DNA of 64,000 nucleotides, from the NCBI GenBank assembly GCA_032358255.1, contig JAULBX010020854.1:1-64000 (forward strand). Reading direction: 5' to 3'. Positions 14,993 through 56,337 of the stretch are shown piece by piece. The stretch comes from Heterotrichella gracilis (taxonomy: Eukaryota > Sar > Xanthophyceae > Tribonematales > Xanthonemataceae). The notes beneath the pieces are model-generated. The model had not been told where the DNA came from. It saw nothing but the letters and a program-made list of their open reading frames with translations, and did no database searches. The translations under genes and the position numbers were made by a program. Every line of letters begins with the position of its first letter. The stretch's first letter is position 1.

Positions 14993-17017
14993 ATGCAGCC
15001 TGGCAGTGTGGAGGAGTATGCAGTATGCCTGGAGGACGTCCAGGCTGCTGCGAGGCGCATTGCTCCCCACGCACAGACAACATCGGTAGGGGGAGCAGGC
15101 GGGTCGCCCATAGCGCTAGCATTGGCAGGTCAAGGCAGTGTTTTGAAAGATGCACTGGCTTTTGTGTCTGTCATGTGCGCATCAGTGCACACCAGTGCCA
15201 GCGCTGCCCCGCCAGCCAGTACAAATTGTTTCCCCTCTCTGCAGGTTATGACCTGCTCTACAATAGACCGCCTGGCTGGGCAGCAACTGTTCTTCAAATG
15301 CGAAATATTTCAAAAGGGGTGGGTTGAAATGAAAATTTGATCAGCCTATCAGACATGCATTTCTTTGCGCATGCCATTTTGCATAGGCTGCAGTTGCCCG
15401 TAGTGGTGCAGCAGTGGCCATCACCTCAATATGTCAAAATGTGCCACCTGCAGGGGGGCTTTCAAGTTCAGAGGTGCCTGCAATGCCGTCATGGCCCTGA
15501 GCGATGCTGAGGCTGCCAAGGGGGTGGTGGCGCACAGTTCGGGCAACCACGCGCAGGCGGTGGCGCTGGCGGCGCAGCTGCGGGGTGTACCTGCACACAT
15601 CGTGGTGCCGTCAACCACTCCGCAGTGCAAGGTGGATGCAGTGCGCAGCTATGGAGGTATGGGGGTCCGGAACCTGTGCATGTAGTAGGAGCCATGTCAT
15701 GTGTAAGCATGTGTGGATTGCTGGAGCGCACTGCACCATCCCCTGCACTCAGTGCCCATGCACTTCTCATCAGCACGCTGCACATGTATAATGCTTAGCC
15801 AGTGGCTATGGAGGGAGGGACGTACTTTTGGTATGGCCCCTCTGTCAATTTCCTGTTCCCTGGTGTCCCTTTGTGCAGAAGGACTGCATTCCCTTAATCT
15901 CCTGCCAATGAGAAATTGTTGTGTCAACCCCACACCATGCCGCCAACACTTCTACTGTAGCCACAAAGCTGAAACAACACGCGCTTATTCCCCATTGGCC
16001 ATGCAGGCCAGGTAGTGTTGTGTGAGCCCACCATGCAGGCCCGCGAGGCCACATGCGCCCAGCTGCAGGCACACACCGGTGCAGCGCTCATCCACCCATT
16101 CAACCACCCGCCGGTGATTGCGGGTCAGGGCACCATTGCGCTGGAGTTCCTGCAGCAGGTGCCCAGCCTGGATGCCATTGTGGTGCCGGTGTCTGGCGGG
16201 GGCATGATCTCGGGGATAGCGCTGGCGGCCAAGGCAGTCAAGCCTGACATAATAATTGTCGCCGCTGAACCAACAGGTGAGAAGGAAGTTGGCAGCCATT
16301 GATACTTTTGATTCAATTGGCCTGAATTGGCTGGCGCAATGCGTGGCTGCAGTTCTGCTGATGCCAAGACAGCAGGGAAGGAACAACCGTATACCACACC
16401 ATTGCCACCATCTATGACTACCACCAAGGGAGCTCCCTTGTATTGCAGGTCGTAATGATGCTGCCGATGCCTCCCAGTGCAAGGCTGCCGGCCGCATGGT
16501 GCCCTGTGCCAAGCCCGACACCATTGCCGATGGGCTGCAGGGAGCGCTGGGGTCCAACACGTGGCCGGTGGTGCGTGACCTGGTGGCGGGGGTGGTGCCG
16601 TTGGCAGAGGGGGAGATTGTGGCGGCCATGCGGCTGTGCTTTGAGAGGATGAAGGTAAGAGGGTGGCTGGCTGGCCTTGCTCTCCCCGTTCCACAAACGG
16701 CTCTCTGCTAAAGCGCATGATACAAAATTGGTGTGCAGTGGCACTGCGCTGGGGCACTGCGCAGTTTTATTTCTATTTTTGTTATAATAATTAGATATAT
16801 TTTACTTGCAGACATCATGCATTGCTGGCTGCAGGTTGTGGTTGAGCCCAGTGGTGCCGCAGGGCTGGCAGCCGTGCTATCCCCTGCATGGCGCTCACAC
16901 CCTGAGTGGAGCCGACTGCAGCGGGTGGGAGTGGTGCTGTGCGGGGGCAATGTGGACCTTGAGGCAACGGGGTTCTGGAAATACTGGGCTGGACGGGCAG
17001 AGCAGGACTGTCAATAA
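14993..17017 (+). CDS. Serine racemase (PLP-dependent, fold type II)
   Basis: Six exons (14993-15085, 15245-15318, 15454-15656, 16007-16276, 16449-16654, 16835-17017) give 342 residues, matching the ~340 of eukaryotic serine racemases. The PLP lysine is in [10 protein letters not shown], the phosphate/substrate loop is SSGNHAQA, the glycine-rich phosphate-binding loop is SGGGMISG, and LCGGN is near the C terminus. The stretch from AAEPTGRNDA through [17 protein letters not shown] and ERMK follows serine racemase rather than biosynthetic threonine dehydratase, which would also carry ACT regulatory domains that are absent here. The enzyme interconverts L- and D-serine and usually also dehydrates serine to pyruvate. 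No organellar presequence is seen, so a cytosolic enzyme is likely. Some dehydratase activity on threonine cannot be excluded from sequence. Confidence 0.9.
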
Positions 17018-46155: not shown

Positions 46156-47667
46156 GACGTGCACTGTCGGGGTAACTGGGTTTTGGGGTTGGGGAGGGGC
46201 ACCAGGTCTGAGGCGGGTGAATACACCACATGCGTGTTGCCCTGCTGAGAGATGTGCTCCCATACGATGATCAGCTGATGATGGTGGGAATTAACGAGTT
46301 GAGCGTGATCATGGAAAAGGGCGACCACTGTAGGTGCAATGTACCCACTTTGGGTAATTTGTTATTTTACAAGTTCTGGTGGCACATGCTCAAGGTTTTG
46401 AGACCCAAGCTGGAAGCACAGCAAATAGCCAGGCTGGGCAGTCGTTGATCTGAGCAATGTACAATAGCATATTATGACGTATGTTTCTACATGTTTGGAG
46501 AGCAATACAATGTTGTGCCATGTAGTTGAGCACTCCTGACGTTTCTTTAGCAATTGCTGGACAGCGTTGACCCACAACACTGCAGTAGAAAATGTTTGAC
46601 TATCCTCACAACTAGCAACCGCAAGAAGTATGATCTTAGGCACTATTTGGCCGCTATTGCATGAACATGAAAGATTCGCACGACTACATTTGACTGGAAG
46701 CGGTAAAGTTTTTTAATGTTCATGCATTTGAGGTGCAATCCTGAGCAGTCTCACCAACCATGCATTGACAACAAAGAGCACATATTGAGCTGGTGTAAGC
46801 ACTTGAGGATCAATCGCTATGAAAAATGACGCCAGTGCTGAACTCCTGTTTGCCCCGGCATTTTTGCCACAGGTGACTCTGCATTATCAACAAACTCGCA
46901 GGGTTGCAACACCTGCACTTTGTCAGAGGGTTGCAACATCACCAGCTTGACCTCGAACTCGGACAAAATGTTCCGAATTGTGAGAGTTGTTAACAGCCAA
47001 AAAGGGCTTCAATTTAGGGTTTGCAAAAGGTAGGGTTTTCAGGCACGAGGCCATAGGCCAGGGTGTCTGGTAAAAGCCATACCTCCCCTGGGCTTGCAAG
47101 CTTGCAGTGCATGCATGCATCACATCCAACCGGTTTCCTAGAAAACGGTACTTGACAGTCGCGATCAACATTTTCAAACGTTAATTTCCTTATCGAAACT
47201 TCGCCGTTCTGCCAACTTAACCTGCTGCCAAGCATACTTGGGTGCGCTTTCAACGTGTGCTCCTAGCAACAAAGATCCTAGGACGCTTACATCAAGAAAG
47301 CACTATGCAGAACTGCTGGTGGTTGTAGAGGTAGGTGCTGGGTTCTGCTGTTCCAGACCTGCTGTCTCTTCACAACGTCTCTAAACAACATGCCGTGCAA
47401 ACCCTCGCCAAACGCCATGGGGTTGGCCAGCTGGACTTCACTGCACATTTTACATAGCTGTGCAGTGCACTGATACTTTGGGCTCGTCACATTGTGATCT
47501 TTGAGGGTCACTGAGTGCAAAGCGTGTGTGCATGCATATAAAACTCTGTCAGGAAACCGATCAGGATGACATGTCTCAAACTTTCTGTAATAGGAGTGCC
47601 ATCCACTTTTGCAGAACCTGTGACAGCATAACCGCAGCACTGGGTGCACCTCTGGTCTCTGGATCCC
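46156..47667. other. Intergenic region before the BTB-SPRY gene
   Basis: No gene is recognised in 1.5 kb. It holds two TGCATGCA motifs (47108 and 47530), the second fused to a TATAAAA about 125 bp before the next start, and a TTTAGGG-like piece near 47014. Confidence 0.6.
47530..47543 (+). promoter_or_regulatory. TGCATGCATATAAAA: TGCATGCA motif joined to a TATA-like box
   Basis: The palindrome runs straight into TATAAAA about 125 bp upstream of the BTB-SPRY start codon. This is the best core-promoter candidate in the window; it is judged from sequence and position only. Confidence 0.45.
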
Positions 47668-49102
47668 ATGGCCTCCTCACGCCGCACCTCCAGGCAGCTG
47701 GCCAAGGCCTTGCAGCGGGAGGCCTTGTCAGACATACGTGACCGCCTCCGCTCTGCCCCTTATAACGATGTCACTTTCATGTGTGTTGATGGGGCCAAGG
47801 TTGAGGCCAACAGGGCGTTCCTGGCAGCACGCAGCCCATACTTTGAGCGGATGCTGTATGGGTCCCTGCGGGAGGCGTCTCAGACCGAGATACCCTTGAC
47901 TGGGGCATCGTCCAGTGGTCTGAAGGTCATCATCGACTGCCTATACTCTGGGGACATCAAGAACGTCCAGCCAGATGCAGTGGCTGTGGAGGCCTACAGC
48001 CTGGCCCGGATGTACGACCTGACCACCCTGTATCAGGCAATTCTACAGACGTTGACAGAAAACCTCACACGATCAACGGTTGCGGGGGTTCTTTCAGCAG
48101 CTGTGCTCCATCAAGTGGAGGGCGTGCAGGCCCTGGCCTTGGCGGTGATCAACAGCGACCCAGCCTCGTTCAGCCTCTCCCTCAGAGGGTTCAGTGGGCT
48201 GGCAGTGATGTGGCTGCTGTCAAAGGCCCCGTGCTTGCACTACAAGGAGGAGGACGCTTCGCGCGGTGGTGAAATGGGACAGGGAGTTCATAACCCAGGA
48301 GGAGAAACGCCGTCTGGAGGAGCAGCTTGGGTGCAGCAACAGCCCTGGGGAGGAGGCATCCGAGTCACCACCCAGCCTCAAGACCCTGCTCGGACCCCTG
48401 CTGGAGCTGATTCAGCTGGACCACGTTCCTGTGCCGGTCATTGAGGAGGTGGTGGAGGGCCATGGCCTGATGGACGCAGCACAGCTGTGTGCTGTCTACA
48501 AGCGCCATGCCAAGGCGCCGCGCCCTTGCACCAGCAGCTTGCAGACCAACTTCCGGCGGTTGGTGTTTGACACCGACTCCCTTGGCGAGGGTGTGCGGCT
48601 CCATCTGCAAGGTGGCGCAGGTGCGTTTGTACATGCGCCGAGTGGCTTGGAGCACCACACCATCCGGGCAAGGCAGAGCTTCACGCAGGGGGTGCACGCC
48701 TGGGAGTGTGAAGTGGCGACCACCGGCGCCCGGGGGTCCAACAATGTGTGGTTGGGGGTGGTGGATGACACACTGCGGAGTGTGGAGACAGGCGCGTGGT
48801 CCGGGCAGCAACGCGGGGGGTGGATGTATGGGTGCGACGACACCCTGTGCCACAACACAGCCTTCCAGGGCACCTGCGGGCTGGGGCGCTGGCCAACGCA
48901 CTGCAAGGTGGGGGTGGTGGTTGACATGGGCCGGAGGAGCATGTATGTGAGGCTGGACGGGGGGCCGCTGCGGCGGGCGTTCAGCAGGCTGCCTGCCTGC
49001 ATGCGGGTGTACCCGGCGGTGTTTTTGAAGGACAAGGCGGCTGTGTCGCTCAAGTTTGTTGCAGTGGATGAGGACATGCTACGCCAGCTGGGGGCCCTGT
49101 GA
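47668..49102 (+). CDS. BTB-BACK-SPRY protein, apparent one-base frame slip
   Basis: The coding region has no evident intron. From 47668 the first frame encodes a BTB/POZ domain (YNDVTFMCVDGAKVEANRAF, ARSPYFERMLYGSLREA) and the start of a BACK domain. The BACK domain continues as LRAVVKWDREFITQEEK only in another frame from about 48254, and that frame runs to the stop through a SPRY domain (FTQGVHAWECEV, WLGVVDDTL, KVGVVVDMGRRSMYVRLDGG). The total length, 1435 nt, is one more than a multiple of three, so a single extra base between about 48245 and 48262 fits. A sequencing or assembly error is as likely as a true lesion, because both halves are otherwise well conserved. BTB proteins usually act as substrate adaptors of CUL3 ubiquitin ligases, and the SPRY domain would bind the target. 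Confidence 0.8.
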
Positions 49103-50878: not shown

Positions 50879-53800
50879 ATGGCGGCGGTTCCAGGGCCTG
50901 ATACCCAGGAGTTCGAAGAGGAGGTGCGGGAAATGCAAGACCGTGTTTTGGCGCCATCCCAGGAGGGGGCTGGTGGAGGTCCAGAACCTGTCATCCAGGA
51001 GATTAGGGAGTACACCAAGGTTGAGCGGCGTAGGGTGGTGGCCACCTATACCCGCCCCAAGCGGAGCTCCCGCCATCAGAAAGCAGGTGGGTGTTGGGCC
51101 CTGGTTCGCAATCCTGAAACGGTCAAACTAAGGTGGCCACTTAAGGTTCGCTTATTCATGAATGCAGTGCTGGCATGTTGATTTCTGAATATATCGGGCC
51201 TCCAAACAAATAACCTATAACCCCACAATGGTGTTCCACACACCCACAGGGGATGCCAATGAGGCTCATCCAGAAGGGGAGGCACCTGATGCCCCTGAAG
51301 ACATTAGCGCACCCCCACCTGCCGGCACCACCCCACCCCATCCAAGGGGGGTACAATACGAGGTCACCATAGAGGAGGACATGACTGTGGAGGTGGAAGG
51401 TGGTGCTGGTGGTGGTGGTGGGGGCCAGCCAGGCACGGAGCAGGGAGGGGGTCTGGTGGGGCCTGAGCTGGAGGGGGGTGCGCCTGTGGGGATTGCGCTG
51501 GGGGGCGATGGTGTCGCTGAGGTGCGTGCTGTGTGGACACTGGTTGAACGACGTGTTCATGATGAATATACATGCCCACTTACTCTACAGCGGGATAGAG
51601 GTCAAATCAAGTGACTGCAACACCCTGACTCTGATATCATGTGCTGTGCACTGCTAGGCTCTTGCGAGTGATTACCTAGGCTAGGGCTCCTGCCATGGCA
51701 TTGTCATTGTTCCTAGGAGCTCAGCCAAGGGGTCGTGAGCGGTCGACCAATCATTTACATTATTGGGCATGCTTGCAAGCACTACCCCCCTGCATGACAA
51801 ACCGTGTCTGCAACCTTTGTTCCACCACAGGCGCCAAGGCAGGAGAAGAAGAAAGGCGGCAAGGGGAAGAAGGGGCGTCCAGCAGGGCGCACACGCGTGC
51901 TGTCCCACATGCAGCCCCAGGCTGCTGAGGAGGCTCCAGCTGGCGCCAGCCCTGACGTCGACATGGAGACGCTGCAGGCTGAGATGACGCCAAGTGGCAC
52001 CGGTGGAGGCAGGCAGGCAGCGGAGGAGGTGCCAGCTGGCACTAATGGGGGTCAGCAGGCAACAGAGGAGGTGCCAGCTGGCACGGAGCCGGAGCCTGAC
52101 CTCCCCATTCCTGCAACCGAGGTGGGTATGTAAGCCGCTGTGTGATGATCTGGAGGAAAGTGTTGTGGTGCAACCAACAGCGGTGCACTAGTGACCCTGT
52201 GGTGGCCCTTAGATTTTGATGCCAATGTGTCTCCACTGACCAACAATATTGCGGCGGGGTCATATGTGGCTGCTTCCTGTAAGAGTGTGATGCGCCACAC
52301 ATGCATGTAGGACATGGCTACCATAATACACCGCAAATGTGCTTATTGTACTGCTACAAGCATTGCTGGGTGCGGGGAGTCTGAAAACGCATCGTGCACT
52401 ACCGGGGTCCTGGCTTGCATGGTGCTGGACGTGGCAGTATTCTCCCTCTATGTCTGTAAACATATTTCATTTGTTCTTTCCAGATCATCAGCGCCACAGA
52501 GCCAGGTGCAGCGGGAGGCGCCCTGGATCTGCCACCCTCGGTGACGGGTCTGCCACCACCGGAGGTAAGCGCATGTGGTTTGGGGTGCATGCATGCAGTG
52601 TAATGCAAGCCTTGCTGGTGCATGTTCATCTGACATGTTCAAGTGATCAACACAGCTGTGAAACAAAAAGAAAGAATGACCATATTGACTAGAACAGATC
52701 CACCAGACACTACTGTTTGCACCTACTGTATGCAGGAGCAGGAAGGCGGCGCAATGGAGGAAACCCAGCCCGAGGAGCCCTTGGAGGGTCCACAGCGGGA
52801 GGGGCAGGGCGGGGAGGGGGAGGGAGGCGGGCAGCGCACAACCCTCCGGGGCATCCTGGGGGGCCTCCTGCCAACTGTGCACATGCCTGCTGTGCTAGAG
52901 AACATCTTTGGGGGAGGGGAGGAGGCGCCGGATGCGGGCAAGGGGGGAGGGAAGAAGGGTGGCGAAATGAAGAGGCGGGGAGGGAAGCAGACATCCCTTG
53001 CAGAGGCCAGCCCTGGCAAGAGGACACGCGGCGCTGCAAAGGGTAGGAAAATATAATACCCCCGCTTCCTTGCATTTTGAAGCCTGAATTTCAAGCAGTG
53101 AACTCTCAAACTTGGGTCATCACTGTCTCCTGACTGGCTTGCGCACTTTGCTCTGGTAGCGAGGTGTCACCTCTTGGGGAGAAGGGTGCCATGGCAAATA
53201 ACGCCAGTCACTGACATGCTGGATGGTAATAATGTACACGTAGACTTTTCTCCATTTTGTTTTGCTAGGGTCAATGGATGCACCAGCAGTTTTGAAAATT
53301 TTAAGCTTGGCTTTTCCAGTGAGTGCGGGTGATTGATGGGCGCCCAGACTTTTAAGTTCAGTCCCTTTAAAACCCTAAACAAATTTACAGAACTATTTCC
53401 CCTCCTGTGCAGGTCCAGCCAGCCCTCCTCCCACCGAGGCGCAGTCTACACCTGGCGATCAGGAGCCAGGGGGTGAACATGCAGGGGAGGAAGAGGGGAG
53501 GGAAAGTGAGCAGCAGCAGGAGGATCGAAGCAGGCCCGGTGGCATCCTGGGCAGCATGCTAGGCGGGGTCTTCGGAGGACAAGGGGGAGAAGCGCCAGAG
53601 TCAGCCAAAGCGGGGAAGAAGAAGGGGGCAAGGGGGAAGCGTGCGGCAGATGCGGATGCTCCAGGGGAGGAGACAGGGGACGGGGAGCAGGGGGAGCAGC
53701 AGGGGGTGGGTGGTGGTGCAGAAGCTGGAGGCAAGGGGAGGACAAGTAAGAGGGCGCGTGGGGGAGACACCACCCAGCAGGGTAAGCCCTTAGGCTAGGG

Positions 53801-55127
53801 TATAGGATGAAGCATTGCGCCAATACCTTCCAAATGAATGTCACCATATTCATCTATAGCCTATGTGATTGAGCCAAGCAAAGAGCATTGGCAGCAGCAT
53901 TTCAACTTGCAGATGTCATATCATTTTGCACAATGCCATAATCAATCACAGGTCTAACCATCTTGAATTGCGCTTCATGTGCTTCATGAGCAGCATTTGA
54001 AAATATATGTGCTCCTTCTGATGTTGTGTTGTCCTGTTGCAGAGCAAGCAGCACCACCCACCACCCCCACCACCCCACCACCTGCTGGGCAGCAGCCCCC
54101 ACCCCCCTCCCCTGCCCCTGTCCCTGCCCCCACCTCCCGCAAGCGGGGACCTGCATCCAAGACGCTGCCTAAGAAAAAACTTGCCACAGGTACTGGAAGC
54201 AGTGTCGATTGATGGGTCGTGTACTTTGCAGCGTTCTCTCAGCAGACTGTGGTGGATATGATGTGGCTGCAGTACAGATTAAATATTCATACATACTTGA
54301 TGCCTATTGGAATTTTGATTCATGAATGAATGCACTCCATAGTGGGGCCATGCTAATGCTTCCTAATAGTTGCTGTGCAGCACCAACCAGGAGGACCTTT
54401 TTCACCCCCCGTCACATTCCTCTGTTGATTCTTTCCACCTCGCCTCACAGGTGGGGTGACCAAGGGGGGCAGTGCCAAGGGCGGCAAGCGGGGAGGTCGC
54501 AAGGTGCGCGGGCATGAGGGGTATGGGCGCTACCTGCACCGCTTGCTGCAGCAGGTGCACCCAGGGATGAGCATCTCACAAAGGTGAGGGAACCCTGGGC
54601 TAGGGTGTGACAAATACGGTGGTGGAGTAATAATGTGGCACGGTCATGTGGTTGCAATGCCATTGGCATAACACCAGTATCACCAAATCTTCTCGCTCAA
54701 TACAATTATTACCATGAGAGTCGCCATGTGGGAGTATTTATTCAAGCACTAATCCCTAATTCGGCGGGTAGTTTGTTATTCGCAAGTACCGTACCACGCG
54801 CAGGCCAGTGAGGGTGCTTGCGGCAATTCTTCTGTCATTAACGGCTGGTAATGCAGCTGTTGCCCAATCAAAACTCATCCCAAACAAGACTCACCATTTC
54901 TCATAATTTTTTGCTGCTCCCGCAGGGCGATGTCGATCATGGAGTCGTATGTGACTGACTGCTATGGCAAGCTGGTGCTGGAGGCAGCCAGGCTGTGCCG
55001 CAAGGACAACACGGCCACGCTGGGGGCGCGTGAGGTGCAGACCGCGGCCCAGCTGGCGCTGCCCAATGAGCTGGCGCAGCATGCGGTCATGGAGGGCAAG
55101 AAGGCCATTCAGAGGTTTGCAGCGTGA
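50879..55127 (+). CDS. Histone H2B-like protein with ~580-residue N-terminal extension
   Basis: Nine exons (50879-51086, 51250-51521, 51831-52121, 52484-52564, 52736-53042, 53413-53781, 54043-54189, 54451-54583, 54926-55127) join in frame into 669 residues. The last ~90 residues are an H2B fold: YGRYLHRLLQQVHPGMSIS (alpha 1), AMSIMESYVTDCYGKLVLEA (alpha 2), REVQTAAQLALPNELAQHAV (alpha 3/C) and the end EGKKAIQRFAA. Canonical H2B is about 110-150 residues. The extension is disordered, rich in Gly/Glu/Ala/Pro and in Lys/Arg clusters (KKKGGKGKKGRPAGR, GKRGGRKVRG). It has repeats of EEVPAGT and two GILG...GG.FGG blocks followed by basic stretches. Standard histone genes are usually intron-poor; this one has eight introns. 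At the H2B monoubiquitination position the AVTKY of typical H2B reads AIQRF, so Arg replaces Lys. A special or low-abundance chromatin variant is inferred. Confidence 0.85.
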
Positions 55128-56337
55128 AGCAGCTGGGTTGGAGATATATGGAATTGAGAAACAGTGTTGGCATTGGGAGTTTGGGGTGCCTTGTCCGGCA
55201 TATGATCTGGGCGAGGCCGGTAAGCAATTGCAATGTTGTAGGCAAGGTGATGGTGCAGAGGGTTGTGGGGTGAGTTTTCAAAATGTTGTAGGTGTTTTGA
55301 CATTGTGATGGGAAGCGCATGGAGTGGCCAAGCCTGACAGGGGGCCACTGGGGGGTTGGTCGGGATGTTGGCAAGTGCATGCAAGCAGCCTGGTTGGCCT
55401 CTGCTCACATGCTGTGACACACTGTGGTATACCATACGATGAACGGTGCTAGCAGAGCTGGGTCCTTACTTGGGAGGGCAAAAGTGTACAATAACTGTGT
55501 TTTCCGTTTGACCACTTGGGAGTTGTTTTGCGTGGTGCACATGTAAGTGACCGTTTGCGACTTTTAGAATGTACTATACCATGTGGGGCCTAGTTGCAAG
55601 AAGTACTGCCAGTCTTGGCACAGGTGCCACCAGGCAAGCCAAAACTTGGTCCTCTAGTCTTAAGGTCTGCCAGGCTAGCCGGCCAGCTGGTTAGGCTAGT
55701 ACGTTGTACAGGGCGGGTGCCTCGCACATGCATGTGGATACTCAATTTTACGTGACTCACCATACTATCCAGTGGGTACTACCATTTGAATCATTTATTT
55801 GGGCCCCATTTTGGGCGATGTTGCATGATGGCATGTGTATACCCAGAGCAATCCTGTTTAATACAAAAAATAGTTGTTCACAAAGGGGTGCGGGTAGTGT
55901 GTTGCACCCACTGTTGGCATTTAATGTAATTTACAGCTGGTATGGGCACTTCTCAGCAATATATGCTGTACTCGGTACCGGGAAAATTTTGAGTAATGAT
56001 TGTGGAATACACCCAGCGTGAGTGTGAGTCTCAGTCCCCATGTCCATCTACTGTGCCTATACCAAGGCTGGCAACGTAGAAATCCAATACAATCCAGCAT
56101 TGTATAGTATAAATCAGTAGGTACTGTAAACCAATGCTTTGGCATTTGTGAGCAGGCTGCAGCCGCATCTAGATCGTTTTGTAATTGCACAATTTAAAGT
56201 ATCCATATCATTTTAACAAATTACAATCAATGTAGCTAGTGCTTTGGCAGGTATATAGTCCACAAGCAGCCCACCAACGTATCGATACCCCATTGATCAG
56301 ATCCCAAGTTTGCTGTTGATCAATCATGTGCGGCGCT
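55128..56337. other. Convergent intergenic region between H2B-like and CCB2 genes
   Basis: No gene is recognised in 1.2 kb. A TGTAA occurs at about 55545 for the H2B-like gene, and one for CCB2 at 56221. Confidence 0.6.
56221..56225 (-). terminator. Putative TGTAA poly(A) signal of CCB2
   Basis: TTACA on the plus strand, about 113 bp past the CCB2 stop, is TGTAA in the gene's sense. Confidence 0.45.

Follow-up and report, generated by a model that had tools for sequence, protein, structure and literature searches.

A candidate 669-residue histone H2B with a long, net acidic N-terminal tail in the alga Heterotrichella gracilis

At positions 50879-55127 of the window (the whole stretch of DNA analyzed, 64,000 nucleotides, which are the first 64,000 of the 77,912 bases of contig C209), a very long predicted protein ends in a histone fold. 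The locus raises the question of whether tail and fold form one histone H2B and, if they do, what such a histone might do in chromatin. A sequence-only reading had proposed nine phase-consistent exons encoding 669 residues, and this model was reproduced exactly: all eight introns were GT-AG and the joined exons had 0 internal stops. In 500 same-base shuffles, the number of stops expected in 669 codons was 17.4 on average and 6 at minimum. The chance of exons 2-9 all being open under random phases was 0.0012, which is an optimistic value because the frame was already known when the splice sites were picked. When alternative nearby GT/AG sites were set by hand, 36 combinations were open; those listed encoded 663-669 residues and retained both the fold and the tail. 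The G+C content was 0.62-0.69 in the exons vs. 0.42-0.51 in the introns. The predicted protein, hereafter the giant H2B, has a mass of 68.2 kDa and a pI of 5.37.

All exons were on the forward strand. Exon 1 (50879-51086; residues 1-70), with the start-codon context GAAAATGGC, encoded a mixture of acidic and basic residues with a basic cluster at residues 49-63, and exon 2 (51250-51521; residues 70-160) was Gly/Pro rich and strongly acidic (net charge −17 in 91 residues). Exon 3 (51831-52121; residues 161-257) had a basic cluster (51831-51902) containing KKGRPAGR, which we take to be AT-hook-like, with acidic repeats after it; exon 4 (52484-52564) contributed residues 258-284. An acidic stretch, a short hydrophobic segment, and a basic cluster were found both in exon 5 (52736-53042; residues 285-387; hydrophobic segment GILGGLL..IFGGG) and in exon 6 (53413-53781; residues 387-510; hydrophobic segment GILGSMLGGVFGG). 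Exon 7 (54043-54189; residues 510-559) was Pro-rich at its start and Lys/Arg-rich at its end, which resembled an ordinary histone tail. The H2B fold, taken to begin at 54513, was divided between exon 8 (54451-54583; residues 559-603), in which a Lys/Gly stretch accompanied helix 1 and loop 1, and exon 9 (54926-55127; residues 603-669 and the stop), which encoded helix 2, loop 2, helix 3, and helix C. The sequence TGTAA on the same strand (55542-55546, 415 nt 3′ of the stop) is presumably a possible poly(A) signal, a weak one at five letters. Upstream, the neighbor at 47632-49102 encoded BTB/POZ and SPRY domains in adjacent overlapping frames, which probably are exons of one gene.

By homology, the C-terminal 90 residues are identified as a clear but divergent H2B. 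A Pfam search of the whole protein placed Histone (PF00125) above its cut-off at residues 560-646 (34.8 vs. 26.4 bits) and matched no other family at E up to 1. When the last 97 residues were compared with PDB sequences, the best match was a tandem H2B chain (8.8e-47), and the best chain with a single H2B copy followed at 1.4e-24 (89.4 bits). Among the best 60 of 180 PDB matches, all labels were H2B or H2B fusions, except for one entry labeled Histone H4 that aligned as H2B. The proposal of an H2B fold that follows a very long tail was thus borne out. Identity of the fold was 44% to a clustered H2B and 44% to a replacement H2B of the same genome, and 44, 46, and 47% to three PDB H2Bs, whereas these five shared 76-92% identity with each other; by pairwise identity, the giant H2B is therefore about equally far from each, and its earlier description as a specialized variant agrees with this divergence.

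Thirty-four columns were invariant across five aligned H2Bs, the giant H2B included. In human numbering, as we assume it, the giant H2B retained E76, R79, R92, E93, Q95, E105, H109, E113, and K116; both residues that we take to belong to the acidic patch (E105 and E113) were thus present, as was E76, which presumably matters in the nucleosome. The substitutions were D51G, Y83K, N84D, K85N, R86T, S87A, R99Q, G104N, K108Q, and K120R. At positions 85-87 of loop 2, which we take to be DNA contacts, human K, R, and S were N, T, and A in the giant H2B and K, K, and P in the other H2Bs of the genome. Because these residues were changed, together with Y83K, stable nucleosomes containing the giant H2B are not certain. 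Position 120, presumably the site of the conserved H2B ubiquitination lysine, was R in the giant H2B and K in the clustered and replacement H2Bs of the same genome. In a single-sequence structural model of the 65 residues that exon 9 encodes from its ATG onward, three helices were predicted in the expected order (mean pLDDT, 76.4). A fold search of the PDB with this model gave 31 matches at E ≤ 10, 0 at E ≤ 0.001, and 0 described as histone; we read this result as probably reflecting a fragment deprived of its partner and counted it as no support.

The tail (residues 1-576) contained 113 Gly, 69 Glu, 68 Pro, and 64 Ala and had a net charge of −21. The basic clusters described in the sequence-only reading were recovered, six in number (residues 49-63, 161-184, 352-370, 449-467, 541-556, and 563-581), but the tail was not simply basic. 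Charge per residue was −0.04 in the whole tail and −0.19 and −0.16 in two stretches picked by eye (residues 70-160 and 185-350, respectively); for comparison, it is −0.19 in the disordered region of plant H2B.8 and +0.29 in a conventional H2B tail of the same genome. A hydropathy/charge index called residues 1-126, 149-251, 267-323, and 354-597 unfolded and residues 327-353 folded, with short mixed stretches between; this index is crude, since helix 1 of the H2B fold was also called unfolded. By this simple index, most of the tail would be intrinsically disordered. Among the 21 pairs of exons 1-7, only exons 5 and 6 were alike at z > 3 (z = 3.2), with a score of 89 compared with a mean of 60.5 and a maximum of 92 in 300 shuffles. 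Because at least one shuffle scored higher, a duplication is not claimed.

At least nine conventional H2B genes were found in the 68.5-Mb genome (903 contigs), seven of them on six contigs with a histone stem-loop and two elsewhere (C14 and C138); more may exist. Introns were present in all nine, located by homology before VTSREIQ in every case, and the two outlying genes had an additional intron near the start codon (also by homology). Canonical histone genes had been held up in the sequence-only reading as intron-poor by contrast; that contrast fails in this genome, where introns as such are no mark of an unusual gene. The giant H2B gene was without both conventional intron positions and had an intron of its own at SISQ/R, and these differences suggest a long separate history.

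A scan for four-base loops placed the stem-loop CTGGTGTTT..AACACCACC 32-34 nt past the stop codon in six clustered H2B genes, and the seventh gene had a histone stem-loop with a five-base loop (7/7). Genome-wide, the element was found 24 times: 21 on the six clustered-H2B contigs, 3 on C430 and C778, and 0 on C209. No histone 3′ stem-loop was found in the 1200 nt past the stop of the giant H2B or in the window (≤3 mismatches), and none was found at the two outlying genes. The best score of the Rfam Histone3 model on the element was 28.2 bits, below its own cut-off of 34; in the 15 loci given to it, the model had 15 matches at E ≤ 1, with no match at the giant H2B locus, at the two outlying H2B loci, or at the clustered loci L015 and L017. 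The case for the stem-loop therefore rests on a repeated near-exact element at a fixed position. Its absence from the giant H2B gene, as opposed to its presence in 7/7 clustered genes, supports the replication-independent expression proposed in the sequence-only reading, and on this sequence evidence the gene would be replication-independent. The replacement-type genes on C14 and C138 were similar to the giant H2B gene in having introns and no histone stem-loop, but their products were of ordinary length and their introns lay at other places; the C138 protein shared 80-84% identity with four other H2Bs and 44% with the giant H2B.

Exact stem-loops also occurred at G000:C430:42152-42172 and at G000:C778:6-26 and 16190-16210, on contigs without a listed core-histone match; perhaps they belong to histone genes that were truncated at contig ends or left off the list. 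At L029 (G000:C50:80500-83700), a TAG interrupted an H2A-like frame; the TAG may mark an intron boundary, or the H2A copy may be broken. At L027 (G000:C19:47800-51000), a single open frame at about 1248-1970 encoded an HMG box and then a divergent histone fold, both labeled by eye; the fold resembles, as we take it, the NF-YC/POLE4 type.

No second copy of the giant H2B gene was found in the 68.5 Mb searched, and in the same genome residues 1-120 (E ≤ 1) and 161-509 (E ≤ 0.001) of the tail matched their own gene only. Relatives were also absent from phage records, IMG/VR contigs, and GTDB prokaryote contigs, in which a nuclear gene of an alga would not be expected, and two queries found no H2B in IMG/VR. 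The eight introns speak against a giant-virus origin, as does the fact that the described pandoravirus H2Bs are far closer to ordinary H2B.

Long-tailed H2Bs are already known, and the surprise here lies in the size and charge. No algal H2B near 669 residues was found in searches of the open-access PMC literature, and the longest H2B printed in the accessible parts of that literature has 319 residues (Pandoravirus celtis; PMC9145170); the earlier statement that no H2B this large has been described therefore holds within the literature searched. Like the giant H2B, the plant variant H2B.8/H2B.S (HTB8), a chromatin-compacting histone of sperm, is reported to have an extended, net acidic, disordered N-terminal tail and a divergent core (PMC9668745, PMC7410336, PMC7694166), and the ubiquitination lysine is replaced in both (N234 in H2B.8 and R in the giant H2B; PMC9668745). 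Loss of K120 is thus not disqualifying for an H2B variant, since H2B.8 lost it too; restoring the lysine in H2B.8 reportedly left compaction undisturbed, so that its loss is not needed (PMC9668745). The disordered region of H2B.8, 93 residues vs. about 580 in the giant H2B, is reported to make nucleosome arrays phase-separate, to function when scrambled, and, in a tobacco assay, to be replaceable by other disordered regions of acidic character (PMC9668745). Unlike H2B.8, the giant H2B has basic clusters between its acidic stretches, and the motif KVVxETV, conserved in the H2B.8/H2B.S extension (PMC7694166, PMC7410336), was not found in it. HTB8 orthologues are given as about 19-32 kDa (PMC7694166). 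Because H2B.8 is reported to be specific to flowering plants (PMC9668745), common descent is not supported, and the tail of the giant H2B probably evolved independently. Streptophyte algae are also said, with no particulars in the accessible text, to have highly divergent H2Bs (PMC7410336).

Pandoravirus H2Bs, above all that of P. celtis, are similar to the giant H2B in their long N-terminal tail with acidic residues, which are located near the start, but they are 64-73% identical to human H2B and keep K120 (PMC9145170), whereas the giant H2B is 44-47% identical to the H2Bs compared and has lost it. The sperm H2Bs of sea urchin and Hydractinia (H2B.3-6) are also N-terminally extended variants and are linked to compaction (PMC5011920); their tails carry SPKK/SPKR repeats, none of which was found in the net acidic tail of the giant H2B.

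Whether the tail and the fold belong to one product was addressed by codon periodicity and by the exon junctions. Among 729 phase sets, the modeled phases of exons 1-7 gave the strongest three-base periodicity (chi-square 121.3; median 21.9). With phases left free, the eight introns reached at most 26.3 (2187 phase sets) and shuffled exons at most 26.8 (40 sets); taken one at a time, single exons scored 10.2-44.8 and single introns up to 16.2 and 11.6. Free phases replaced a control of introns joined end to end (chi-square 2.4), which was too easy because a periodic signal could cancel. Since their modeled phases ranked first of 729, exons 1-7 very probably encode protein and are spliced in the modeled way. 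For all nine exons, the modeled phases ranked third of 6561, and a histone block shifted by one base scored the same (125.6 vs. 125.2 as modeled); periodicity is thus no proof of the tail-fold junction. This leaves some room for an unlikely arrangement of two products or genes, in which the tail would come from another gene or isoform lying upstream, and a short H2B would have its start near exon 7. Exons 7 and 8 alone do resemble an ordinary histone tail and fold, and an in-frame ATG at 54021, in intron 6, would yield a 167-residue H2B (MLCCPVAEQ...). However, this ATG, the sole one in frame nearby, falls within the pyrimidine-rich 3′ end of intron 6 and has what we take to be a poor context (CTGATGT), whereas the start at 50879 has a presumably good one (AAAATGG). 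Exon 7 has no in-frame ATG of its own and continues in phase into the Lys/Arg-rich stretch and the fold, and exons 1-6 have no stop in the modeled frame and join exon 7 in phase; these features support the junction. We infer that tail and fold are carried on one transcript, and the long 669-residue model, in which the joining of the exons in one mRNA is the presumed step, is considered likely, well above even chances. A decaying gene or pseudogene would fit the lack of a second copy, the very divergent fold, and the low-complexity tail, but it is very improbable, given 669 codons without a stop or frameshift, GT-AG borders at 8/8 introns, codon periodicity across the tail, and the 34 H2B columns kept.

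To a single 669-residue, replication-independent H2B variant whose disordered tail condenses nucleosomes as the H2B.8 tail does, we give about an even chance. The C-terminal 90 residues would pair with H2A and replace conventional H2B in some nucleosomes. The N-terminal region of about 580 residues, putatively disordered and made up of Lys/Arg-rich clusters interspersed among acidic Gly/Pro/Glu-rich stretches, would cause nucleosomes bearing it to associate and condense; its basic clusters could provide further contacts, either with DNA or with the acidic stretches of neighboring tails. The sequence-independence reported for H2B.8 means that a very different tail could do the same job, and for this reason condensation is taken as the most likely role. 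Because the tail is net acidic, the bridging or compaction of DNA suggested in the sequence-only reading is not naturally ascribed to a basic tail here; condensation by a disordered, locally acidic region, as in H2B.8, fits better. The more specific proposal, that a nucleosomal acidic H2B of 68 kDa and pI 5.4 with a tail-to-fold ratio of about 6:1 drives condensation and acquired the same two changes independently of H2B.8, is tentative and somewhat short of even chances. It is doubtful that the protein is instead a non-nucleosomal chromatin-associated one, such as a scaffold or regulator, whose H2B fold pairs with H2A or an H2A variant. The identity of only 44-47%, the changed loop-2 DNA contacts, and the low pI would suit such a protein, and the genome encodes another histone-fold protein with an extra domain (the HMG box assigned by eye); against this, the acidic patch and E76, with their presumed nucleosomal roles, are retained. 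In addition, Encephalitozoon H2B is reported to form nucleosomes despite 24% identity to human H2B (PMC9145170). A self-chaperoning histone would also accord with the presence of long acidic stretches and a histone on one chain, and with the reported binding of histones by acidic disordered regions of separate chaperones; its acidic tail would fold back onto the basic surface of the H2A-H2B dimer and ease deposition or eviction rather than condensation. This seems quite improbable: Pfam identified no chaperone domain, and basic clusters are presumably not expected of a chaperone region.

The setting of the condensing H2B would be a special cell state, such as a gamete, zygote, or resting cell. 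Matches to the HAP2/GCS1 gamete-fusion family were found on both strands at G000:C359:6566-14675, as if two neighboring copies lay in opposite directions, and gametes are thus possible in the host alga. A role as stand-in for a missing linker histone was ruled out, as two places with linker-histone (H1) matches were found (G000:C266:128834-129010 and G000:C61:14431-14607).

Loss of K120 would free nucleosomes containing the giant H2B from the transcription-linked ubiquitination mark. If the condensing H2B is real, the solution seen in H2B.8, a long acidic disordered tail together with a lost ubiquitination lysine, would have been reached more than once, and the alga would offer a far larger natural tail, built of blocks of alternating charge, in which tail-driven chromatin condensation could be probed. 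Such a protein would be an exception to the usual expectation of small, basic histones, and acidic histones of this kind could be missed by acid extraction or by proteomics size cuts.
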